A DNA stretch of 40,706 nucleotides from a virus. Shown here piece after piece: positions 1 to 39,924 of this stretch (the first letter of the stretch is position 1; every line of letters starts with the position of its first letter). Both the position numbers and the translations under genes were made by a program. The notes below the pieces were generated by a model. The model worked only from the letters and a program-made list of their open reading frames with translations. It was not told the DNA's origin and made no database searches. Where the stretch lies: positions 1 through 40,706 of IMG/VR virus record IMGVR_UViG_3300028829_005686. The stretch is one strand, 5' to 3'.

Positions 1-189
1 GACTCCGCGACTTATACCGCCGCGGATAGTAGTACCTTCTCGAGTGCTACTGCCACCGCTTCGCCCGGCCGCGCTTTGTTTTGATTCTCTTTCTTGTCCT
101 TGTATAAAGGATTTTAAAAGGGATGCTTGTTCGTCAGAGGAATCTTTTATCGATTCAAATATCGGCTTTAGGTCGTCTAAGGTTGCCAT
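1..189 (-). CDS. N-terminal fragment of probable tape-measure or baseplate-hub protein (runs off the left edge)
   Basis: The reading frame starts with ATG at 189 and stays open for 63 codons to base 1, so only the N-terminus is present. It begins MATLDDLKPIFESIKDSSDE, an acidic helical stretch, followed by a Ser/Gly/Thr/Arg-rich low-complexity segment. No domain can be recognised. It starts 4 bases after the stop of the 56-residue ORF, in the same leftward transcription unit as the gp26-like gene. In tailed phages the gene just downstream of the two tail-assembly chaperone ORFs is normally the tape measure, and in T4 relatives gp29 combines hub and tape-measure roles, so this is the most likely identity. 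That is inference from position only. Confidence 0.55.
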   Translation of the reverse strand, partial: MATLDDLKPIFESIKDSSDEQASLLKSFIQGQERESKQSAAGRSGGSSTREGTTIRGGISRGV

Positions 190-193
190 TTAA

Positions 194-364
194 CTACTTC
201 CTGTTTTTTTCTTCCATCTTTTCGAGATAATCTATCAACATATCATAATACAGGTCTCTTTCAAAAGGCATTAAGTTTTCCAAATCAGTTAACGAGTACT
301 TGTGATGTTGAACCATACCAAATAATTTTTGATAATAAACCATTAGGTTTATATGATTCAACAT
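194..364 (-). CDS. Small baseplate-hub / tail-assembly chaperone-like protein (56 aa)
   Basis: The frame runs ATG at 364 to TAG at 196-194 and encodes 56 residues. It contains the stretch LENLMPFERDLYYDMLIDYL. A small ORF with a similar MPFERDLY motif commonly follows the gp26-like gene in T4-type phages and is sometimes annotated as a gp51-like hub assembly factor. The start overlaps the gp26-like stop by one base (TAATG), which permits translational coupling. The -1 frame is also open upstream through a T-TTT-TTT heptamer at 376-370, so the peptide could alternatively be made as a C-terminal extension of the gp26-like protein, like the lambda G/GT tail chaperones. It is charged and helical with no membrane segment. 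Existence is well supported; function is inferred from position. Confidence 0.7.
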   Translation of the reverse strand: MLNHINLMVYYQKLFGMVQHHKYSLTDLENLMPFERDLYYDMLIDYLEKMEEKNRK

Positions 365-1065
365 TAGATAAAAAAACTTTGAGTTCCTTGTATCACAAAT
401 GTTTTCTCGTCACCTTTAGAATTTACATAAGGTACTTCGTGCCTTGCGGTTGGTATTGTATCAAAAAACTTTTTTATTTCGCGTAATGTGTCTGCATTTA
501 AACTTTCAATAAACTCATCTATTTCTTGTTTACTAAAATCTTTAAAATTATAAACTTGTTCTTCCGAAGCTAATTTATCCAAACAAGATAACAAAATTTC
601 AAATTGCTTTTCTTGAGAAGCTTCTGCATCCATCATCAAATCAAAGAAATCATCAATATGCGGATACTTTAAATATAACATATATTCATCGGATATTTTA
701 ACTTCGTCTTGATGATCTTCGTGTTTTTGTATTTCTACTTTCTTTAAGTCAAGTTCTACTTCTACCTGTTCTTCGGTATCAGGGTCAGTAATTTCAAACT
801 TAATGATATTATCAACTGAACGTGATCTAATATTTAGAATAATGTATTCCAAATCAAAAAGAGCAAGTTCATTTATATCAGCGCCAATAAGGCAATTATT
901 CACAATCTGTTTAATGGCAGTAATGATCTCTTTAGGATCTTCTGACTCTCTTGCCATTAACATAATCTTTTCTTCCTTTACGGTAAACGGGCGATATGTC
1001 GCCTTTTCACCTGTTGAGGGAATTTTCAATTCATATGTAGGCATATCAATCTTTGGTAGTGGCAT
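364..1065 (-). CDS. 26: gp26-like baseplate hub / tail assembly protein
   Basis: This 233-residue protein begins MPLPKIDMPTYELKIPSTGE and continues with YRPFTVKEEKIMLMA. That pattern is typical of the T4 baseplate hub subunit gp26 family (T4_baseplate), whose T4 member is about 208 residues. The middle is acidic, with repeated Glu/Asp/Lys clusters around residues 90-130, and the C-terminus is helical. It is part of the leftward unit gp4, gp2, gp54, gp26. The gene lies directly upstream of a 56-codon ORF and a probable tape-measure gene, the position held by tail-assembly chaperones in other tailed phages. A slippery heptamer lies two codons before the stop. The family call is confident. Whether the protein is a structural hub component or an assembly chaperone cannot be told from sequence. 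Confidence 0.8.
   Translation of the reverse strand: MPLPKIDMPTYELKIPSTGEKATYRPFTVKEEKIMLMARESEDPKEIITAIKQIVNNCLIGADINELALFDLEYIILNIRSRSVDNIIKFEITDPDTEEQVEVELDLKKVEIQKHEDHQDEVKISDEYMLYLKYPHIDDFFDLMMDAEASQEKQFEILLSCLDKLASEEQVYNFKDFSKQEIDEFIESLNADTLREIKKFFDTIPTARHEVPYVNSKGDEKTFVIQGTQSFFI
370..376 (-). promoter_or_regulatory. Candidate -1 ribosomal frameshift site (T-TTT-TTT)
   Basis: On the minus strand the gp26-like gene ends AGT-TTT-TTT-ATC-TAA. The seven T residues form a slippery heptamer in the correct X-XXY-YYZ register. After a -1 slip the ribosome reads TAT-CTA and then continues directly into the downstream 56-codon frame. The register and open -1 frame are seen in the sequence. Actual frameshifting is not shown, and no stimulatory hairpin was analysed. 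Confidence 0.45.
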
Positions 1066-7914: not shown

Positions 7915-9597
7915 ATGAGTACAAGTAATCTATGTCAAAAGTCGTCTCATGTTGTTCGTATTGGAACATCGTTTAAAGAAGAGCCTTTTAATGTTACGGA
8001 CATAGATCGCCCTCTAAGCGATTTAACACAACAATTTTTAACTGGTGTTACATTCGGAGAAAATTACAGCGATCCTATTACAACAGCCGTTAGAGAATAC
8101 GGAGAGGATAATTTTTATAAATCTGTCGCGGATATAAACACTTATTTTGTACGTGAAGACCTTAGAGCATTTGTAACCGATGAAGATACTCCTTTACTAA
8201 ATCAAAGAATACAAAGTGACTATGTATTCACACCAATTGAAATAGCAGAGTATATGAGAGAATTTGGATATACTCCAACAAGCCTTTCAAATCAAACACA
8301 AACCGTTTCAAATAAAATACCAAAAGAATTAGAAGCCTTCTATACTAAAAGCTTTACGAGTAGTTCCATGGGAAGTTTTTGTGGTTTATTACCTAATGTG
8401 TTTGGAGCTATCGGAGTATTTTTTACTGGATTAAACGCGGTTGCAGATCTCGTTAATAAGTTAAAAAACTTTTCTTTAAATTTTTCATTGATTGCGTTAA
8501 TAGATCAACTCAAGAGCAAAATTTTAAATGTTATTGATAAGAGTATAGAAAAAGTACAAAACGTAATAGAAAATGTTTCTATGGAAAACGTAATAAAACA
8601 AACGAATAAGTTTGCCAATGATGTAATCGGTAAAGAATTTGCAAGAGTTAAAGAAACGGCACAAAGTTTCTTTGATGGTACTGCCGTTGATGATTTTAAG
8701 TCAAAGATCAAAGCTCTTATTGATTACGCTGTTGGTATTTTCAAAAACCCTACGCTCGAAGAAATACAATATCTTATGTTTCGCTTTTGTGGATTTATAT
8801 CTCAAGTAGAACAAGGACTTGATGGATTAAAACAACCGGTTAACGATTATGTAAATGTTTACAATCAATCACAGGCTGCCTTAGCCGCGAGTAGCGCATA
8901 CAATACACTTCAAGCCATTAGGGCTGGTGCAATTCGTTATGATCAAGATAAAAGAGAAGAAGGTATAAATACAGGTATAGAAGTAGCGAAAAATAATAAA
9001 ACTGAATGGCAAGAACCAGTTTCGAGTCCTGAATATGAAAATATTACTAAATGGAATGATGGCGCAGGTGATAGTAAAATAGAATTTGCAATGTTTGACA
9101 AATACGAATGGCAAGGTTTAGATATAAGTGTAAGATCTAAACTTATGAGGGTACAAAAAGAATTTGGTAAACCGCTTGTAATACTAAAAGGCAGAACAAA
9201 TCGCCCTAGTCCTGAAGATTATGAAGATGTACATGATACTGGGAAAGCAATTGATTTAAGATGGGCTGGATATAATGTCTCAACGCGTGAAAAATTTATT
9301 GAAATTGCAATACGAAACGGGTTTGCCGGAATTGGTAGATATGTAGATTTCGTTCATATTAATGTTGGCTCTAGAAGAGAATGGAGCAATGGCTTAAGTC
9401 CAGACGATCCGTATTATCAATATTCATATGACCAAGATTATGAAGAACTATATGGTAGGGCAAACAAAGCTGAAGATGTACAAGTTCTGACGGGTGTTTA
9501 TAGTGGCAAATATAAGGATGGCGATATAGTATCGTTCCAAGGTAGTCAATACAGGGTAGATGAATTTGAAGAAACATACAATTTAGTTCCATTATGA
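7915..9597 (+). CDS. Baseplate-associated structural protein with C-terminal M15-type peptidase domain
   Basis: This 560-residue protein begins 18 bases after the spike gene with a clear AGGAG site. The N-terminal half is unrecognised: residues 1-130 are mixed, about 150-180 are Gly/Phe-rich and hydrophobic, and about 195-260 are amphipathic helix with heptad-like Ile/Val/Leu. The C-terminal part carries an M15 / VanY-like zinc peptidase signature: VHDTGKAIDLRW with H440 and D447, then GIGRYVDFVHINV with H481. Such D-Ala-D-Ala-type peptidases cut peptidoglycan stem peptides. After residue 500 there is a short beta-rich tail. Placement beside the spike suggests a second virion-borne wall hydrolase acting with the spike's transglycosylase-like domain. 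The fold is confident; the role in the virion is inference. Confidence 0.75.
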   Translation: MSTSNLCQKSSHVVRIGTSFKEEPFNVTDIDRPLSDLTQQFLTGVTFGENYSDPITTAVREYGEDNFYKSVADINTYFVREDLRAFVTDEDTPLLNQRIQSDYVFTPIEIAEYMREFGYTPTSLSNQTQTVSNKIPKELEAFYTKSFTSSSMGSFCGLLPNVFGAIGVFFTGLNAVADLVNKLKNFSLNFSLIALIDQLKSKILNVIDKSIEKVQNVIENVSMENVIKQTNKFANDVIGKEFARVKETAQSFFDGTAVDDFKSKIKALIDYAVGIFKNPTLEEIQYLMFRFCGFISQVEQGLDGLKQPVNDYVNVYNQSQAALAASSAYNTLQAIRAGAIRYDQDKREEGINTGIEVAKNNKTEWQEPVSSPEYENITKWNDGAGDSKIEFAMFDKYEWQGLDISVRSKLMRVQKEFGKPLVILKGRTNRPSPEDYEDVHDTGKAIDLRWAGYNVSTREKFIEIAIRNGFAGIGRYVDFVHINVGSRREWSNGLSPDDPYYQYSYDQDYEELYGRANKAEDVQVLTGVYSGKYKDGDIVSFQGSQYRVDEFEETYNLVPL

Positions 9598-30434: not shown

Positions 30435-32091
30435 ATCAGCTCGCGGTAGATCTGCGATAATAGGTCAAGGCTTTACACAAGCCACACCAATTTCATTAGA
30501 TCCTGTACCATACGAAGGAGCTGTTGTTTATTCTGACGATGCACTTCTTAGGTATTCTGATGGTGCACAATGGGTACAAATTAGCCCAGGTCCACAAGGT
30601 GTTCAGGGTATCCAAGGATCCTTTGGTACGCAAGGTACTCAAGGTCGCCAAGGCATTCAAGGAACTCAAGGAAGTCAAGGTATCCAAGGTATCCAAGGTG
30701 TTCAGGGTATCCAAGGTAACTTTGGACCTGCTATTCGTATTATTGGTGAAATAGAAGATGCGAGTGCAAATACGGATTCTGGTGATCTCGACGATTACTT
30801 ATCTTCAATTTTTTCATCAGCTGTTGTTGGTGATACAATTGTTGACCAAAACCTAGATGAATTGTGGGCATACGTTGGTAGTGGTGATTGGATTAACTTA
30901 GGTCCTTTCCGTGGGCAGCAAGGTGTTCAAGGTATTCAAGGTACTCAAGGTACTTCTGTCCAAGGTACTCAAGGTACTGCTATACAAGGTACAACAGGAT
31001 CACAAGGTATAACTGGTGAACAAGGTGTTCAAGGTATCCAAGGTACCCAAGGTAGACAGGGTATTCAAGGTATTACAGGATCTGGGTTTCAAGGTATTCA
31101 AGGTATTCAGGGTATTACTGGCGAACAGGGTACTCAGGGTACAACAGGACCACAAGGCATCCAAGGCATCCAAGGTATTCAAGGCCGTCAGGGCATCCAA
31201 GGTATCCAAGGTACTGACGGGTTTATCGGTGGCCAAGGTATTCAAGGTATCCAAGGTATTACTGGTACTGGTGAACAAGGTATTCAAGGTACTAACGGTA
31301 CACAGGGTACAACAGGTGCAGGTACACAAGGTGCAACCGGTACACAAGGTATACAAGGTACAGACGGTTTCGTTGGCGGTCAAGGTATCCAAGGTATTAC
31401 TGGTACTGGTGAACAGGGTATTCAAGGTCGTCAAGGTATTCAAGGCGGACCGGGCGCAGGATTCCAAGGTATTACAGGTGAGCAAGGTATTCAGGGTATT
31501 CAAGGTGGACCTGGTATCGGATCTCAAGGTACTACAGGTACTGTTGGAAGCCAAGGTATTCAAGGTATTCAAGGTGGACCTGGTATCGGATCTCAAGGTA
31601 CTGATGGAGGATCTGGCGCTCAAGGTATTCAAGGTATTCAAGGTGGACCTGGTATTGGATCTCAAGGTACCCAAGGTACTGATGGTACCGACGCCTCAGG
31701 TACACAAGGCCCTCAAGGTATTCAAGGTATCACTGGTTCCATAGGTCTTCAAGGTGGTGATGGCGGCGGAGGTGGTTCTGCATATGAGTTACAAGCCGCA
31801 AACGACACAACTACAAACTCTAACTTTTATCCAGTATTTGTAGGTGATACAGGATCACTACAAACTATTAAAGCGTCTGAATCAAAACTATATTTCAATC
31901 CTAACTCAGGAAGATTAAGCGCAACAGAATTTGGTTCTTTGTCTGATATTACAGTAAAGGATAATATTAATCCTATCCAAAATTCTATTAATATACTTAA
32001 ATCTATTGACACCGCAGAATTTACATGGAAACACACCGGTATTAAAAGCTATGGTGTTATTGCCCAACAATTAGAAGATGGTAGACAGTAA
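30424..32091 (+). CDS. Collagen-like tail fibre with C-terminally truncated S74 chaperone
   Basis: I choose ATG 30424, 7 bases after GGAG; an ATG at 30421 and a TTG at 30403 are alternatives. Residues 1-55 hold an attachment module (YEGAVVYSDDALLRYSDGAQ). Residues about 56-98 and 165-440 are Gly-X-Y collagen-like repeats dominated by GIQ and GTQ with few Pro. They are interrupted at about 100-160 by a globular insert (DLDDYLSSIFSSAVVGDTIV). Near the C-terminus an S74 chaperone starts (LSDITVKDNINPIQNSINIL, candidate S507) and reaches GVIAQQLE, but then ends after DGRQ. About half of an S74 domain is missing; related sequence resumes in the overlapping next ORF in the +1 frame. The length would otherwise be normal for a collagen-like fibre. 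Confidence 0.8.
   Translation: MSLKSARGRSAIIGQGFTQATPISLDPVPYEGAVVYSDDALLRYSDGAQWVQISPGPQGVQGIQGSFGTQGTQGRQGIQGTQGSQGIQGIQGVQGIQGNFGPAIRIIGEIEDASANTDSGDLDDYLSSIFSSAVVGDTIVDQNLDELWAYVGSGDWINLGPFRGQQGVQGIQGTQGTSVQGTQGTAIQGTTGSQGITGEQGVQGIQGTQGRQGIQGITGSGFQGIQGIQGITGEQGTQGTTGPQGIQGIQGIQGRQGIQGIQGTDGFIGGQGIQGIQGITGTGEQGIQGTNGTQGTTGAGTQGATGTQGIQGTDGFVGGQGIQGITGTGEQGIQGRQGIQGGPGAGFQGITGEQGIQGIQGGPGIGSQGTTGTVGSQGIQGIQGGPGIGSQGTDGGSGAQGIQGIQGGPGIGSQGTQGTDGTDASGTQGPQGIQGITGSIGLQGGDGGGGGSAYELQAANDTTTNSNFYPVFVGDTGSLQTIKASESKLYFNPNSGRLSATEFGSLSDITVKDNINPIQNSINILKSIDTAEFTWKHTGIKSYGVIAQQLEDGRQ
30592..31755 (+). repeat. Collagen-coding Gly-X-Y repeat tract
   Basis: The DNA is a degenerate 9- or 18-base repeat around CAAGGTATT, interrupted at about 30730-30900 by non-repetitive sequence. 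It encodes GIQ/GTQ triplets. Because the repeat spacing is a multiple of three, both other frames and the antisense strand also stay open for long stretches; those reading frames are shadows. Confidence 0.85.
31501..31670 (+). repeat. Three near-identical 69-base tandem units inside the collagen tract
   Basis: Units begin at 31501, 31570 and 31639, exactly 69 bases apart, each opening CAAGGTGGACCTGGTAT and continuing GGATCTCAAGGTAC. The first 33 bases of units one and two are identical; the middle of each unit varies. Each encodes a 23-residue block containing GGPGIGSQG. Confidence 0.8.
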
Positions 32092-33277
32092 TTACTATGC
32101 AGCGGACGAAATTACAGGTGAATCAAAACCGCTAAATCAAAGGTACGTTAAATATAATGAACTTGGGTTAGCAACCGATTCATTATGTAATACCTTATGG
32201 GCGTGGGGCTGGAATTGCTGTGGTGATAATATGATTAACACAGCTGGTAGTGGCGGTGATCCTACCGCACAGACAACTTGCCCAACTCAAGAAATTACGT
32301 CAAGCACAGTTTGGTGTCATGTAAGTGGCCATCGTTGCCATACCACTGCAATTAAAACCGATGGTACACTGTGGTCTGCAGGTCATAATGCACAAGGTGT
32401 TCTTGGCGATGGGACAACAGTAAATCATTCTTCACCAGTTCAAGAATTTTGTTCTTCAACGGATTGGTGTACATCGTCTCAAAATGGGTGGCTAACAACA
32501 CATGCAATTAAGGCAGATGGATCCTTGTGGTCATGGGGTCGTGGGGCAACAGGTGAATTTGCTAATAATTCTGTAGGAACGAATTGCTCGGCAGTGCAAG
32601 AATATACATCTTCGGAATGGTGTTATGTACACAGGACAGACTCTTCTTCGTTTGGAATTAAAACCGATAGTACTTTATGGGGATGGGGATGTAACGGAAC
32701 AAATGGGTTTTTAGGACTCAATAGTACTGGCGGCAATTACTCATCACCGGTTCAAGAATATACATCTTCGGCATGGACCGTCACGTCAGGATGGGGTAGT
32801 TTTGTTAGTGGTCTTAAAACTGACGGATCCATCTGGACATGGGGATGCGGTTGTGGATTGTACTTTGGTATTGGTTTATGCTTACCTATTGCGCGTTCTA
32901 GCCCAGTACAAGAAATTTGTTCCGCCGCAAATTGGTGTGATGTATCTTCTACATTATACGGTACATATGCTCTTAAGACAGACGGAACACTTTGGGGATG
33001 GGGTAGATATAATCCTAGCTCCGTTGATTCTTGTTCACCAGTTCAGGAAATAAATTCTCATACTAGTTGGTGTTTAGTCAATGGTGGCGTTGTACACGGC
33101 GGCGCGATTAAAACAGATGGTACTCTGTGGTCGTGGGGTGGTATTACAGGTACGGCCTCGATCGGAGATGGGCAAACTTGTAGCCGTGCTAGCCCAACAC
33201 AAGAATATTATTCTGCCACAAATTGGTATAAATACTCAGGAAAAACCTATGGCGCTATTGGATTAAGAATAGTCTAA
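32078..33277 (+). CDS. RCC1-repeat beta-propeller fibre protein 1 (399 aa)
   Basis: The ATG at 32078 lies inside the end of the collagen-fibre gene (14-base overlap, +1 frame). Residues 1-31 (MVDSNYYAADEITGES, then RYVKYNEL) look like the second half of an S74 chaperone rather than an RCC1 element. From about residue 41 there are seven RCC1 units, each with a W-G-type core: LWAWGWNCCG, LWSAGHNAQG, LWSWGRGATG, LWGWGCNGTN, IWTWGCGCGL, LWGWGRYNPS, LWSWGGITGT. Units are joined by SSPVQE and a TNWC-like element. Seven units equal one full seven-bladed propeller. The protein is unusually rich in Cys and Trp. A host-binding role is inferred from location among fibre genes; RCC1 folds generally mediate binding. 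Confidence 0.8.
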   Translation: MVDSNYYAADEITGESKPLNQRYVKYNELGLATDSLCNTLWAWGWNCCGDNMINTAGSGGDPTAQTTCPTQEITSSTVWCHVSGHRCHTTAIKTDGTLWSAGHNAQGVLGDGTTVNHSSPVQEFCSSTDWCTSSQNGWLTTHAIKADGSLWSWGRGATGEFANNSVGTNCSAVQEYTSSEWCYVHRTDSSSFGIKTDSTLWGWGCNGTNGFLGLNSTGGNYSSPVQEYTSSAWTVTSGWGSFVSGLKTDGSIWTWGCGCGLYFGIGLCLPIARSSPVQEICSAANWCDVSSTLYGTYALKTDGTLWGWGRYNPSSVDSCSPVQEINSHTSWCLVNGGVVHGGAIKTDGTLWSWGGITGTASIGDGQTCSRASPTQEYYSATNWYKYSGKTYGAIGLRIV

Positions 33278-33981: not shown

Positions 33982-35223
33982 ATGGTTACTCTTACATGTT
34001 TTTTTGAACAAAACACGGATCTTGGTCAAATTTATGTAGATCAAGATGATATAGAGGCGCGTGTACTTGACGGAACAATAGATCCTGCTTATTTAAGCAA
34101 AGAAGGACATGAAGCCTTAACAAAAAATACATTATGGGTAATGGGAGACCAAGGGGATACAGGGTGGGGAGACAGCTGCAGATATGCAACATCCACGTGT
34201 TCACCAAGAATAGGTCCTGAGCAAAATAATTCATGGGCAAAAGTTGCCGCTGGTGCCTGTCATGTTAACATAATTAAAACAGATGGTACTCTTTGGGCGT
34301 GGGGTCAGAATAATTGCGGTCAACTTGGTACATCAAATGTAATTAATACTTCATCACCAGTTCAAGAATTCTGCTCGGCATCAAATTGGGACTGTATCAT
34401 ATCACTTGCTTTTAACACTTCGGCACTTAAAGCCGACGGCAGTCTTTGGTTGTGGGGTGCTGGGACCGGCGGCAGGTTAGCAAATAACAGTCAAACTAGT
34501 GTAAGTAAACCAACACGTGAAGTGACTTCTTCAACGTGGATGTCAATTGGGGCGAATGCCGGTGGGCAAGCAAACTTTGGTGTAAAAACTAATGGCACTC
34601 TTTGGACATGGGGTTGCAACGGTTCTTATGGAAATATGGCAATTAATTGTTCTACAGGCACATGCCGACTCACACCAGTTCAAGTATCTTCTACGAGCTC
34701 TAATTGGTGTTTTGTAAGTCTAGCAAGAATAAATGCTAGTTCTGCAATTAAAACAGACGGTACTCTTTGGGCGTGGGGTCAAGGTGATAACGGGGCGATT
34801 GGTGATAATAATAATATAAACAGATCTTCACCTGTTCAAGAAGTTACAAATGGAACAGATTGGTGTTATTCAGCAGGTGGTAATGGCACAACTATTGCTT
34901 TAAAAAATGATGGTTCTTTCTGGGGATGGGGTATAAATGGTACTCGATTCGTTGTTGGAGCCGCGCCACAAACAACCTGTTTCTCGTCGCCGGTTCAAGA
35001 ATTTTCGCAATCTTATGGATGGTGTAAGGCCGATGCGTGTTATCACAACATGGCACTAAAAGTGGATGGAACACTTTGGGGATGGACCAATTTTCAACTA
35101 AGAGGCGAGCTTGGCGATGCGATGAGTGGAGGAGGATGTTCACCAACACAAGAATACCATAGTTTAACAACGTGGTGTGATATATCAGTAAGAGCTTGGG
35201 CAACATTCGCTATCAAAGGATAA
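33982..35223 (+). CDS. RCC1-repeat beta-propeller fibre protein 2 (413 aa)
   Basis: The N-terminal 45 residues (DLGQIYVDQDDIEARVLDGT) form a module not present in the other copies. Seven RCC1 units follow, with cores LWVMGDQGD, LWAWGQNNCGQLG, LWLWGAGTGGRL, LWTWGCNGSYG, LWAWGQGDNGAIG, FWGWGINGTRF and LWGWTNFQLRGELG. Between units lie SSPVQE and IKTDGTLW elements, near-identical to those of neighbouring copies in both protein and DNA. This is one complete propeller without extra C-terminal domain. It starts 2 bases after the DUF4376-like gene and ends 3 bases before propeller gene 3, so it belongs to one coupled unit. Receptor binding is the most likely role, not proven. Confidence 0.82.
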   Translation: MVTLTCFFEQNTDLGQIYVDQDDIEARVLDGTIDPAYLSKEGHEALTKNTLWVMGDQGDTGWGDSCRYATSTCSPRIGPEQNNSWAKVAAGACHVNIIKTDGTLWAWGQNNCGQLGTSNVINTSSPVQEFCSASNWDCIISLAFNTSALKADGSLWLWGAGTGGRLANNSQTSVSKPTREVTSSTWMSIGANAGGQANFGVKTNGTLWTWGCNGSYGNMAINCSTGTCRLTPVQVSSTSSNWCFVSLARINASSAIKTDGTLWAWGQGDNGAIGDNNNINRSSPVQEVTNGTDWCYSAGGNGTTIALKNDGSFWGWGINGTRFVVGAAPQTTCFSSPVQEFSQSYGWCKADACYHNMALKVDGTLWGWTNFQLRGELGDAMSGGGCSPTQEYHSLTTWCDISVRAWATFAIKG

Positions 35224-35226
35224 ACT

Positions 35227-36474
35227 ATGTCAGGATCATCAAACTTTAACAAAGCAACAAACGATTTAGACGAAATTTTTGCACCGCGAAATTGGTTTAA
35301 AACGACTGGATCCGAGCTATGCGGTATGGGAGAATGGCAAGCCGGTGAAATGGGCATTGGGATAAGTCAGGCAGGAAGCACCAGATCTTTAGTTCAAGAG
35401 TTTTGTTCCGCGACAAATTGGGCATCAGTATCACAAGGCAGAATACATACAGCAGGTCTTAAAGAAGACGGTACTTTATGGACATGGGGATATAACTTAT
35501 TTGGTGCGCTAGGTATTGGAAACACAAATTGTGCTGGATATGTAAATTCACCAGTACCAGAATATTGGAATGCAACAAACTGGTGCCACTTAATGGTAGG
35601 TGCATTTGAAGGTGGCGGCGTAAAAGCTGACGGCAGCCTTTGGATGTGGGGTAGAAATGAATACGGTGCTTTAGGTATAAATTCATCAACAGGAACGGAT
35701 GACGGCTGTGTATGCCCAGTTAGAGAAGTTACCACAGGTGAAAATTGGTTAACCGGTTGTATTGGATTTTCAAGCGTCAATGCTATTAAAACTGACGGTA
35801 CCATGTGGGGCTGGGGATATAATATGAATGGCGAGATTGCAACGAATCAGCAACCTACATGTTCACATTCTTCACCTGTTAGAGAAGCATCGTCAAGTAC
35901 AAATTGGTGTCAAGTTTCTAAAAGCGAATGGGCAAACGCAGGAGTAAAAAAAGATGGTACTCTTTGGGCGTGGGGTAGAAATTGTTGTGGCGCCGCAAAC
36001 TCACCAATCTCGATAACTAACGTTTCATCTCCAGTTCAAGAAGTTTCATCGAGTACAAATTGGTGTAAAGTTACAGTTGGTAATTCAACTTTACACGGTC
36101 TTAAAGAAGATAATACTTTGTGGGGATGGGGATATAACGAATGTGGTATGGTAGGAGATGGATGTCTATGTATTCCGGCCGTAGCCGTATCTAGCCCAGT
36201 GCAGGAATATTCTAGTAGTACAGATTGGGTTGACATTATGACTGGCGGTAGCAACGGTGCAGCAATAAAAGCAAATGGTACTATGTGGATATCTGGTGCA
36301 AACGACGTAGGACAGCTAGGTAAAGATACAACAACCCTTGCGCATCTATCATTTGGTTCGTATGGTGCTTCAAATAATTGGAAAGCCGTTGATCTTAATC
36401 GGTACGGAGTATCTTGTAAAAGATTATATGGAATTTTTTCAAACGATTGTTTAGACTTCACCATTCCAACTTAA
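35227..36474 (+). CDS. RCC1-repeat beta-propeller fibre protein 3 (415 aa)
   Basis: The short N-terminus (about 30 residues: SSNFNKATNDLDEIFAPRNW) differs from other copies. Seven units follow: LCGMGEWQAGEMG, LWTWGYNLFGALG, LWMWGRNEYGALG, MWGWGYNMNGEIA, LWAWGRNCCGAA, LWGWGYNECGMVG and MWISGANDVGQLG. The inter-unit elements SSPVQE, SSTNWC and KTDGT recur. A 33-base stretch at 36034-36066 is identical to 40257-40289 in propeller gene 5. The last residues (RLYGIFSNDCLDFTIPT) form a short C-terminal cap. The gene's stop overlaps a late-promoter-like box for the Mrp gene. The fold is confident; target unknown. Confidence 0.82.
   Translation: MSGSSNFNKATNDLDEIFAPRNWFKTTGSELCGMGEWQAGEMGIGISQAGSTRSLVQEFCSATNWASVSQGRIHTAGLKEDGTLWTWGYNLFGALGIGNTNCAGYVNSPVPEYWNATNWCHLMVGAFEGGGVKADGSLWMWGRNEYGALGINSSTGTDDGCVCPVREVTTGENWLTGCIGFSSVNAIKTDGTMWGWGYNMNGEIATNQQPTCSHSSPVREASSSTNWCQVSKSEWANAGVKKDGTLWAWGRNCCGAANSPISITNVSSPVQEVSSSTNWCKVTVGNSTLHGLKEDNTLWGWGYNECGMVGDGCLCIPAVAVSSPVQEYSSSTDWVDIMTGGSNGAAIKANGTMWISGANDVGQLGKDTTTLAHLSFGSYGASNNWKAVDLNRYGVSCKRLYGIFSNDCLDFTIPT
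36034..36066 (+). repeat. 33-base exact direct repeat shared with 40257-40289
   Basis: The segment starts GTTCAAGAAGTTTCATCGAG and ends AATTGGTGT; the copy at 40257-40289 is identical. It encodes VQEVSSSTNWC, the linker between propeller blades. Flanks differ, so identity is sharply bounded. It could act as a recombination site between propeller genes 3 and 5. Confidence 0.85.
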
Positions 36475-36480: not shown

Positions 36481-36517
36481 ATAGTGTTATTATAATATGT
36501 AAGGAGTGAAAAGTATT

Positions 36518-37345
36518 ATGCTATACAAATCTAAACTTGGGATGGAAAACGTAAAAAACGTTATCCTTGTTTCTTCAGGAAAAGGTGGTGTAGGCAAATC
36601 CACCACAGCTGCTAATATTGCAGCTTCTCTTTCTCTTTTAGGTAATAAAGTTGGAATGCTTGACGCGGACATTTATGGTCCGAGCCAATTTATGATGTTC
36701 GGATTAGAAGACGGCTCTCCTATTACCATATCTGAAAATGGATCCTGGATAGAACCGTTTAATTCTTATAATATTAAAATCACCTCAATTGCAAGTAGAG
36801 TAAAACAAGGACAAGCTTTGTCTTGGCGCGGTCCTATGGCTGCAATGGTTTTACAGCAAATGCTATTTGAAACAAATTGGGGAGAAGTAGATTATCTTAT
36901 TGTAGATATGCCACCGGGCACCGGCGACATTCAAATTGCAATGTGTGATAAAGTACCTAACGCAAAAGTTTTAATCGTAACAACACCACAAGATGTTGCA
37001 TTGATTGATTGCAAAAAAGGTATAGATATATTCCGTTCAAAGGATATTAATATTTTAGGTATTGTAGAAAATATGAGTGTTCACATTTGTAGCAACTGTG
37101 GTCATATGGATCATATCTTTGGTGAAGACGGTGCAAAAAAACTAGAAGAAGAATACGACGCAACAGTAATCGGACGAATACCATTAAATACATCTATACG
37201 AATAGATTCCGATAATGGTATGCCGATTACTTTAAAAGATAAAGACGGTCCTATAGGAACAGTTTATAAATCAATTGCAGAAGAAATAATGAAGGAGTGT
37301 ATAGAAGATGTCGAACAGGACGATGGTGAAACTGATCCACGCTGA
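36518..37345 (+). CDS. mrp: Mrp/NBP35-family Fe-S cluster carrier P-loop ATPase
   Basis: I choose ATG 36518, 11 bases after AGGAG; a GTG at 36506 overlaps the ribosome site and is unlikely. The 275-residue protein has the deviant Walker A motif SSGKGGVGKSTTAANIA (K22 and K27), then MLDADIYGPSQFMMFG and YLIVDMPPGTGD, hallmarks of Mrp/ApbC/NBP35. The metal-binding C-S-N-C is at C191-C194. It lacks the N-terminal MIP18/DUF59 domain of many bacterial Mrp proteins. Mrp proteins carry and deliver [4Fe-4S] clusters as dimers. In this phage it could support host Fe-S metabolism or mature a phage enzyme. The downstream kinase-fusion gene overlaps it by 38 bases, so the two are co-translated. Family call is strong; role in the phage is unknown. 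Confidence 0.9.
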   Translation: MLYKSKLGMENVKNVILVSSGKGGVGKSTTAANIAASLSLLGNKVGMLDADIYGPSQFMMFGLEDGSPITISENGSWIEPFNSYNIKITSIASRVKQGQALSWRGPMAAMVLQQMLFETNWGEVDYLIVDMPPGTGDIQIAMCDKVPNAKVLIVTTPQDVALIDCKKGIDIFRSKDINILGIVENMSVHICSNCGHMDHIFGEDGAKKLEEEYDATVIGRIPLNTSIRIDSDNGMPITLKDKDGPIGTVYKSIAEEIMKECIEDVEQDDGETDPR

Positions 37346-38252
37346 TGGGTTTTATTCTGAAGAAGAAGCTAGAAAATTTAAATACATTGTAGGAGATCTT
37401 AGTTATACAGAAAAAAGCTATGGATATGAAATACAAGGGTTTAATATGATACAACGCGGACTCGAGCCTGTATTTAGTCGAGTCCTTGGCGAAAAAATTA
37501 TTATAGATCAAAATAGATCTGGATTATTCCGTAGGCCAAAACAATTTGTTCACTTTGAGGATTTTGAAACTCTTGATGAATGGTGCTTTGTTATTGCTCT
37601 TGAAAAAACTACATTTAACATGTTTCATCATTTAAAAGATGGTATTGGAGAAAGCGGAGAAGTAGACTCAAAGTCAGCACTAGACGGATACGAATACAAT
37701 TATCGAAATCTTATGGAATGGAATATTGAAACTAACGTTGTGTTAGAGGAAAACCAAGGTGTGTTCTTTAGACCATGGATGTTCCATTCTCTTGATGAAG
37801 GTAAATTAGTTCAATATTATCGTCTTATTGCAGATCGGTCTCTTCGTATTCTTATAATGGGGCGCCCAGGTCAAGGTAAAACTGATCTGGCAAAACAGCT
37901 TCAAGAAGCTTTACCAGAGAGCCTGTATATTAACTCAGAAGAAGAAAGAGTTAAAGCAAAGGATATAGATTACAGTATTGATGGCCAATCCAGACACACG
38001 TATAGGGTTCTAGAGATAGCTAGAAAGAACCGTTCAGATAACATTATTATTGATATGAGTTGTCCTCTTGAAGACAGTAGGGATATTTTAAATCCTGATG
38101 TTGTTATATGGCTGGATACGAAAAAGGATAGTGGAAATAAAGAGTGGGAAGAACAATTTGAACCACCGAAACTATATGATCTAAAATTTAAAACAATAGA
38201 TGAAGACACAATACCTGATATTGTTGAAAAGGTAAAAACAAAAAGATTATAA
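37308..38252 (+). CDS. Fusion of an unknown double-psi/cupin-like N-domain with a C-terminal P-loop (APS-kinase-like) kinase
   Basis: The start at 37308 has an AAGGAG site within the end of the Mrp-like gene. Residues 1-178 are unrecognised; they have alternating beta segments with FNMFHHLKDGIGESGEVD and FFRPWMFHSLDEGKLVQYYR, a His-containing pattern compatible with a cupin or 2-oxoglutarate-oxygenase-like barrel, although I cannot identify a full metal triad. Residues 179-314 form a small kinase: ILIMGRPGQGKTDLAKQLQE (Walker A, G185-T192), NIIIDMSCPLED and RDILNPDVVIWLDTKKDS, then FEPPKLYDLKF. This layout resembles adenylylsulfate-kinase-like domains seen in T4-type marine phages. The substrate may be sulfate, a sugar or a protein. 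Kinase fold fairly firm; N-domain and substrate uncertain. Confidence 0.72.
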   Translation: MSNRTMVKLIHADGFYSEEEARKFKYIVGDLSYTEKSYGYEIQGFNMIQRGLEPVFSRVLGEKIIIDQNRSGLFRRPKQFVHFEDFETLDEWCFVIALEKTTFNMFHHLKDGIGESGEVDSKSALDGYEYNYRNLMEWNIETNVVLEENQGVFFRPWMFHSLDEGKLVQYYRLIADRSLRILIMGRPGQGKTDLAKQLQEALPESLYINSEEERVKAKDIDYSIDGQSRHTYRVLEIARKNRSDNIIIDMSCPLEDSRDILNPDVVIWLDTKKDSGNKEWEEQFEPPKLYDLKFKTIDEDTIPDIVEKVKTKRL

Positions 38253-38544: not shown

Positions 38545-39924
38545 ATGCCCATAAGCAATTCTTGTATTCAAGCAAATGCAAACGCTCTTATTGGTGCGGC
38601 TACTACCCGTCAGCTTGCACAAGTGTCAGGCCTACTTACTGAAAATTCAACATATTCTGTTGCGTGCATTGCTGCATTGCCTTCCGCAAGTGATAACCAA
38701 GGAAGACTGATTTACGTTACTGATATTAGTGCGTATCGTTATTCGGATGGGGACTCGTGGTCAAATTGTTATGACACCACTTGTCGTGTAGCATTAAGAC
38801 AACTTTTTGGCTGGGGTTGGGACGCATGCGGTAATTTAGGAAATGGAATTTGCCCTAGTTACGCATGGAGCAGTGAAGTTCGAGAACAATGTTCTGCAAC
38901 AAATTGGTGCCTCATTACAAACGCTTCTTGCGTAACCTCAGCTATTAAGACTGACGGCACCCTTTGGAGATGGGGCAGATACGTCCCTAATGGGTCAGGC
39001 ATGTCTGCTTCTCCAATCCAAGAGCAGAATTCAAGCACAAACTGGTGTTTTGCACGTCAAGGTGGTGGTGGGAATGGGCATGCCCATGGCATTAAGACTG
39101 ATGGTACCATGTGGGGTTGGGGCTATAATGATGACGGGCAACTCGCTACCAACTTAGTAAATCTTTATACTACTTGTACCACCCCAGTTCAAGAGATTAC
39201 TTCTTCAACTAATTGGATTAATACTGCTATAGGAAGCAATCACAGCGCCGGTGTCAAATCTGATGGTACGTTTTGGAGTTGGGGCGGGGATAATAGCGCA
39301 GGAGTATTGGGTATAAATTCAACTGCGATTAGTAAATATTCTTCACCAGTTCAAGAAATTACATCAAGTACAAATTGGTGTTATGCTAGTGCTGGAAACG
39401 CTTTTACTTCCGGTTTAAAAACTGATGGTACATTATGGTCTATGGGAATACACCTATATGGAACATTAGGAACCGGGTGTGCTAATAGCGTATCAGCATC
39501 ATCACCGACGCAAGAATTTTGTTCAGCTACGAATTGGAGTAAACTATCTTCTTCAGGGTCAGGCACAAATAACCAAAGCGCAATTAAAACAGATGGAACA
39601 TTATGGAACTGGGGAAATAATACTTATGGAATGTTAGCAATAGGATCTGGCTCTGGATCGGTTTGCTCCGCTAAACAGGAATTTTGTTCTGCGACAAACT
39701 GGTGCTTTACAGACGTAGGTAAAAAACATACAGCAGCAATTAAAACTGATGGCAGTTTGTGGATGTGGGGTGAAGCACAATACGGAAATATACAAAGAGC
39801 ATCCAACGCGTGTACACCGATCCAAGAACAAAACTTAGGAACTAGTTGGTGTACGGCCACTGCAGGATTAAGTTCTACTTTAGCTATTAAGCAAATTATT
39901 AAAGGTTTTAATACACCATCATGA
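38545..39924 (+). CDS. RCC1-repeat beta-propeller fibre protein 4 (459 aa)
   Basis: The N-terminal 90 residues include a fibre-type module, AALPSASDNQGRLIYVTDIS followed by AYRYSDGDSWSN, related to the one in propeller protein 5 and to the collagen-fibre N-terminus. Seven RCC1 units follow: LFGWGWDACGNLG, LWRWGRYVPNG, MWGWGYNDDGQLA, FWSWGGDNSAGVLG, LWSMGIHLYGTLG, LWNWGNNTYGMLA and LWMWGEAQYGNIQ. Inter-unit SSPVQE and SATNWC elements match the other copies. The stop overlaps the next propeller gene's start by 4 bases (ATGA). It is the longest complete copy because of its N-terminal adaptor. Confidence 0.82.
   Translation: MPISNSCIQANANALIGAATTRQLAQVSGLLTENSTYSVACIAALPSASDNQGRLIYVTDISAYRYSDGDSWSNCYDTTCRVALRQLFGWGWDACGNLGNGICPSYAWSSEVREQCSATNWCLITNASCVTSAIKTDGTLWRWGRYVPNGSGMSASPIQEQNSSTNWCFARQGGGGNGHAHGIKTDGTMWGWGYNDDGQLATNLVNLYTTCTTPVQEITSSTNWINTAIGSNHSAGVKSDGTFWSWGGDNSAGVLGINSTAISKYSSPVQEITSSTNWCYASAGNAFTSGLKTDGTLWSMGIHLYGTLGTGCANSVSASSPTQEFCSATNWSKLSSSGSGTNNQSAIKTDGTLWNWGNNTYGMLAIGSGSGSVCSAKQEFCSATNWCFTDVGKKHTAAIKTDGSLWMWGEAQYGNIQRASNACTPIQEQNLGTSWCTATAGLSSTLAIKQIIKGFNTPS

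Follow-up and report, generated by a model that had tools for sequence, protein, structure and literature searches.

The window, that is, the whole stretch of DNA analyzed here, is the 40,706-base virus record IMGVR_UViG_3300028829_005686 (38% G+C), a partial record of an uncultivated virus lineage that carries T4-type tail genes. The following features are found at its beginning:

1..189, minus strand: putative tape-measure gene, N-terminal 63 codons, cut by the record end (from relatives and position)
194..364, minus strand: 56-codon ORF, gp51 C-terminal domain (TAC-C), reached via a predicted -1 frameshift (phrog_634, hhalign)
194..1065, minus strand: predicted -1 frameshift fusion (TAC-NC), 290 aa (open -1 frame, T4 gp51 alignment)
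307..316, minus strand: 3' arm of the downstream RNA stem, ATGGTTCAAC, pairing with 353-362
353..362, minus strand: 5' arm of the downstream RNA stem, GTTGAATCAT (window fold z=-5.2, covariation)
364..1065, minus strand: gp26-like gene, putative short tail assembly chaperone form (TAC-N), 233 aa (PF12322, phrog_150)
370..376, minus strand: slippery heptamer T TTT TTT in the 0-frame register (sequence)
385..389, minus strand: AAGGA, Shine-Dalgarno-like site (anti-SD duplex energy)

The gp26-like ORF (364-1065, minus strand) closes with ACT CAA AGT TTT TTT ATC TAA TG, in which the heptamer (376-370) keeps the X XXY YYZ register and is followed by the single codon ATC and the stop codon TAA (366-364). 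The initial annotation had reported the exact slippery register, which stands, and a position two codons before the stop, which is correct for the second TTT only, the heptamer lying one codon before it. Its further observation, that the -1 frame runs on through TAT-CTA-ATG into the 56-codon ORF, was confirmed in the window sequence: from the heptamer the frame reads TTT TTT TAT CTA ATG into the ORF at 194-364 with no intervening stop, and it stays open between a point 43 nt before the 0-frame stop and +170. The predicted fusion junction peptide, in its window form, is GTQSFFYLMLNHINL. Among the 31 non-overlapping listed ORFs of the window that were scanned (each at least 80 aa), only one other in-frame TTTTTTN is present, at a distance of 405 codons from its stop; within 10 codons of a stop there is no further T6 heptamer.

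On the plus strand, the baseplate-hub block of the window includes a 560-aa protein (7915-9597) with a C-terminal peptidase match (phrog_25247). Four RCC1-like phrog matches ('regulator of chromosome condensation') are located in the tail-fibre region (32078-33277, 33982-35223, 35227-36474, and 38545-39924, plus strand), and these proteins are possibly beta-propeller fibre or adhesin proteins. The RCC1-like cluster is adjoined by matches to a ParA-like partition protein (36506-37345, phrog_164) and a kinase (37308-38252, phrog_10255), also on the plus strand.

The gp26-like protein matches the Pfam family PF12322 (T4_baseplate, E=1.3e-59) and phrog_150 (baseplate hub, E=1.3e-62). The 56-aa ORF matches phrog_634, the baseplate hub assembly catalyst gp51 (E=4.1e-19), over positions 59-113 of the 121 in the profile, which is its C-terminal half, and the C-terminus of T4 gp51 is recovered with hhalign (probability 97%, E=9e-11). 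In a full-length profile comparison, the predicted frameshift product aligns with T4 gp51 at E=3.8e-21, colinearly and unbroken across the slip junction. T4 has two separate, divergent genes, 26 (208 aa) and 51 (249 aa), whose products are related (BLAST E=2e-6, profiles E=9e-17); T4 gp51 shows PF12322 over residues 1-201 and phrog_634 over 147-246. Judged from these alignments, T4 gp51 is evidently an in-frame fusion of a gp26-type domain with the gp51 C-terminal domain, and T4 gp26 corresponds to the short form. The two-domain fusion and the colinear junction thus indicate that T4 uses two genes for what the window phage encodes as both forms at one locus. In the window, a partial record, there is a single gp26 match with the 56-aa partner in its -1 frame, and the T-even arrangement (separate gp26 and full-length gp51, no slippery site) was not found there. 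The proposal of the initial annotation that the gp26-like protein and its partner are the T4-type equivalent of the lambda G/GT pair is therefore supported, with the partner identified as the gp51 C-terminal domain and T4 gp51 as the natural fusion.

The AlphaFold model of gp26 has a mean pLDDT of 87, and that of the T4-type gp51 a pLDDT of 81, with a helical C-terminal domain of lower confidence. In BFVD both models match gp26/gp51-type proteins of many phages. With Foldseek no PDB entry was matched at E<=0.001; the HK97 tail assembly chaperone gp13 (2OB9) came third (E=1.7, probability 0.21). In a tree of the domain common to T4 gp26 and gp51, a grouping of both, as a single duplication would produce, was not rejected (p=0.48), and long branches meet.

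A gp26 relative was detected by tblastn in 626 phage records, and scans of viral contigs supplied the loci L001-L080 and L095-L197. T TTT TTN is present in register at 183 of 183 non-T-even gp26 loci (a set that includes a few duplicate records), with protein identity down to about 22%, and no relative that keeps both ORFs has lost the T-run or its register, the loss named as refuting in the initial annotation; the window thus shares with these relatives an in-register heptamer ahead of the TAC-N stop. The heptamer lies within a complete ORF in 182 of the 183. The exception is the gp26 gene of L189 (2034-2732), 99% identical to that of HTVC008M, in which the heptamer itself is intact and an internal stop occurs near residue 163, due to either a sequencing error or a defective copy. 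Every named phage that was inspected directly has the heptamer (KVP40, Aeh1, Mendera, P10VF, HTVC008M, P-SSM2, S-PM2, MED4-213, S-CRM01, Syn30, and Vibrio D482), in the form T TTT TTC or T TTT TTT, and T TTT TTG in P10VF. The stop codon follows 0, 1, 2, 3 or 8 codons after the heptamer across the non-T-even loci, which points to a drifting stop behind a fixed heptamer; the downstream start codon and the protein sequence also vary around the invariant heptamer.

The window AAGGA is located 8 nt upstream of the heptamer and 20 nt upstream of the ATG at 364, with an anti-SD duplex energy of -5.4 kcal/mol. At -4 kcal/mol or stronger, anti-SD pairing is found in 62% of 55 representatives that share less than 80% identity, compared with 8% of in-frame background positions, and the signal peaks 6-9 nt upstream of the heptamer. 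A Gly codon conserved at this position may account for part of the signal. In the SLNDFF clade the SD-like site is absent.

Downstream, the 60 nt beginning 3 nt past the heptamer were folded. In respect to dinucleotide shuffles the mean z over 54 sequences is -2.7 (-5.2 for the window), and in respect to synonymous-codon resampling of the same protein the mean z is -2.4, which indicates that the structure exceeds what the coding requires. For the window alone the synonymous-codon test gives a modest z of -2.25, with 4% of resamples folding as well, and in some relatives (L093, L197, L086, and L024) no downstream structure was seen in this test. The window and SLNDFF clades share a 10-bp stem, formed between +8 to +17 and +54 to +63 after the heptamer, with a 7-nt spacer and a 36-nt loop. 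In a gapless alignment of 45 relatives, collected with the window protein as the query (the most divergent hairpins, L061 and L062, lie outside it), the stem positions pair in 84% of cells, compared with 20-44% when the partner is slid. Changes on both sides occur in 27 cells, where 12 are expected, with a covariation score of 0.245 compared with 0.168 (each 0/500 shuffles, relatedness partly corrected); counted separately within the two clades, the double changes number 10 (3.4 expected) in one and 12 (4.5 expected) in the other (0/1000 shuffles). The pair +9/+62 is an example in which both sides are synonymous, Leu CTG being accompanied by Gln CAG, or Leu TTG by Gln CAA. RNAalifold on the mixed 45-sequence alignment returned no consensus pairs, and the named stem was tested instead. 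The P-SSM2-like cyanophages have, instead of this stem, a short hairpin from +6 to +36, with a synonymous-codon z between -3.6 and -5 in most members; covariation is uninformative here because the sequence is nearly invariant.

The upstream SD-like site and the covarying downstream stem fit stimulators of slippage. The E. coli dnaX frameshift uses an upstream SD-like element and a downstream stem as stimulators, at an A AAA AAG heptamer and with a truncated, not extended, product; the stimulator pair is the same as in the window, whereas the heptamer and the type of product differ. We lean, with some reserve, toward the reading that the two stimulators drive slippage and that their form has been exchanged between lineages around a constant heptamer: the window and SLNDFF clades have the long-range stem with its 36-nt loop, and the P-SSM2-like cyanophages the short hairpin together with a strong SD site. 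A strong SD site seemed to be present wherever a stem was missing, but this hint did not reach significance (p=0.07).

The initial annotation had offered reinitiation at the TAATG overlap as an alternative or second route, in which the 56-aa ORF would be a separate gene translated by coupled reinitiation at the ATG at 364. The overlap is present in the window, and an ATG occurs within the first 16 codons after the slip in 27 of the 55 representatives. The other 28 have no ATG there, and 16 of the 55 have no ATG, GTG or TTG either, so that reinitiation is not the conserved route. In addition, the -1 peptide FF[YR][LI]x[LM] right after the slip is conserved among phages upstream of any start codon, the spacing of the AAGGA to the ATG is beyond that of a normal Shine-Dalgarno site, and the invariant heptamer would be left unexplained. 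We consider it quite improbable that reinitiation accounts for the locus as a whole; in the window only, it may serve as an extra, minor route.

Slippage at the heptamer also has to be weighed against a second explanation, in which the T-run is kept merely through the two Phe residues and A+T-rich codons. The genome is A+T-rich, and the T-even gp26 proteins often retain the FF residues as well. In these, however, the residues are encoded as GAG TTC TTT, and the heptamer is found in 0 of 23 T-even gp26 or gp51 ORFs; the T-even genes can be regarded as a natural control, since keeping the protein motif evidently does not in itself call for the heptamer. Codon usage points in the same direction: the first Phe codon is TTT in 55 of 55 representatives, compared with 71% of the Phe codons elsewhere in those genes, and the codon preceding the Phe pair (Asp, Ser, Thr or Asn) ends in T in all 55, compared with 36-75% elsewhere. 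The chance of the heptamer under codon usage alone is ~1e-19 if the 55 representatives are treated as independent, which they strictly are not. This second explanation also leaves the conservation of the -1 frame and the RNA stem unaccounted for. On these counts the window heptamer is evidently not a product of chance, and codon bias is an even less probable explanation than reinitiation. A broken single gene, caused by a sequencing or assembly error in the 7-T homopolymer (a common site of such errors), was rejected as having practically no likelihood, since the two-frame arrangement is present in 183 loci from many assemblies and recurs in the finished genomes of KVP40, Aeh1, P-SSM2, S-PM2, and HTVC008M.

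The identification of the gene starting at 189 as the tape measure, proposed in the initial annotation, is supported by position and by relatives rather than by the window itself, where the gene is cut after 63 codons. The close relative L002 has the same N-terminus, with an ORF open for at least 501 aa, and a gene of about 500-870 aa lies directly downstream in L002 and other relatives (572-868 aa in the others). Matches of the downstream gene to tape-measure families are weak to moderate (moderate in L018, L022, and HTVC008M), and they are absent in several other relatives. In HTVC008M the downstream gene is annotated as a putative tape measure, with one small ORF in between. There is thus good positional support for a putative tape-measure gene. 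In the SLNDFF clade, the putative tape-measure gene downstream of gp51 in L042 (3881-6484) contains a Peptidase_M15 domain.

From the in-register heptamer and its conservation, the open -1 frame, the gp26/gp51 homology, and the covarying stem, all of them read from sequence, we hold it very probable that this is a tail assembly chaperone locus of a T4-like phage, with a short form and a long form made by stimulated slippage, serving the tape measure. Most ribosomes would stop at the TAA (366-364), giving the 233-aa short form (gp26, TAC-N), whereas a fraction would slip by -1 at the two Phe codons of T-TTT-TTT and continue through the gp51 domain to give the 290-aa TAC-NC. The upstream SD-like site and the stem 7 nt downstream probably aid this step. 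The short and long forms would then assist the folding or assembly of the tape-measure protein, whose gene follows immediately, as in lambda G/GT. We infer the occurrence of slippage, its rate, and the chaperone action from these features.

Frameshifting is reportedly conserved in several groups of T4-like phages, and T4 itself is said to use genes 26 and 51. Both T4 proteins are listed as hub assembly chaperones in a review of the T4 tail (PMC3004832). The tail assembly chaperones of T4-like phages were identified by Vladimirov, Gautam and Davidson (2022, Virology 566:9-15, PMID 34826709), a work cited in PRFect (PMC10885494) for T4-like phages with a short gene and a fused long gene, and in PMC12846349 for poly-T slippery sequences in the TAC-N genes of T4-like phages. 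As these citing passages present it, frameshifted T4-like chaperones are an already published idea, and both the genes and the short and long forms are those predicted for the window. To this picture the present analysis adds the covarying stem, the SD-like site, and the synonymous-constraint test, of which the first two may be new details. Full-text literature searches returned no direct report of a gp26/gp51 or cyanophage frameshift.

Compared with lambda G/GT and the conserved tail-gene frameshift (Levin et al. 1993; Xu, Hendrix and Duda 2004), the window locus would have a similar -1 slip near the gene end, upstream of the putative tape measure, and by analogy a similar pair of short and long chaperones; it differs in the T TTT TTN slippery site, and the HK97 gp13 fold match is not significant. 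The chaperones of the Vandenendeviridae and Andersonviridae (phage Adele, PMC12846349) also have a -1 slip, located at a poly-T stretch of the TAC-N gene that precedes the tape measure, but the motif is GTTTTT and the phage families are different. The T4 gp26/gp51 pair has the same short/long domain architecture as the window, but is encoded by two divergently transcribed genes with no slippery heptamer.

In several relatives (L093, Syn30; L087, HTVC008M; L091, MED4-213; L084, Aeh1), the gp51 region either lacks an annotation or has one that begins at an internal start, because the junction offers it no separate start codon; Syn30 is of the former kind and HTVC008M of the latter. The slippage route offers an explanation for gp51 genes that, in many cyanophages, are short, have no start codon or went unannotated, and such a 'gp51 gene' is predicted to have no expression of its own. 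The covarying stem presents a ready reporter target for the slippage rate. In general, a large and diverse set of T4-like phages outside the T-evens would make their chaperone pair by slippage, T4 gp51 being the same long form, hard-wired into one gene.
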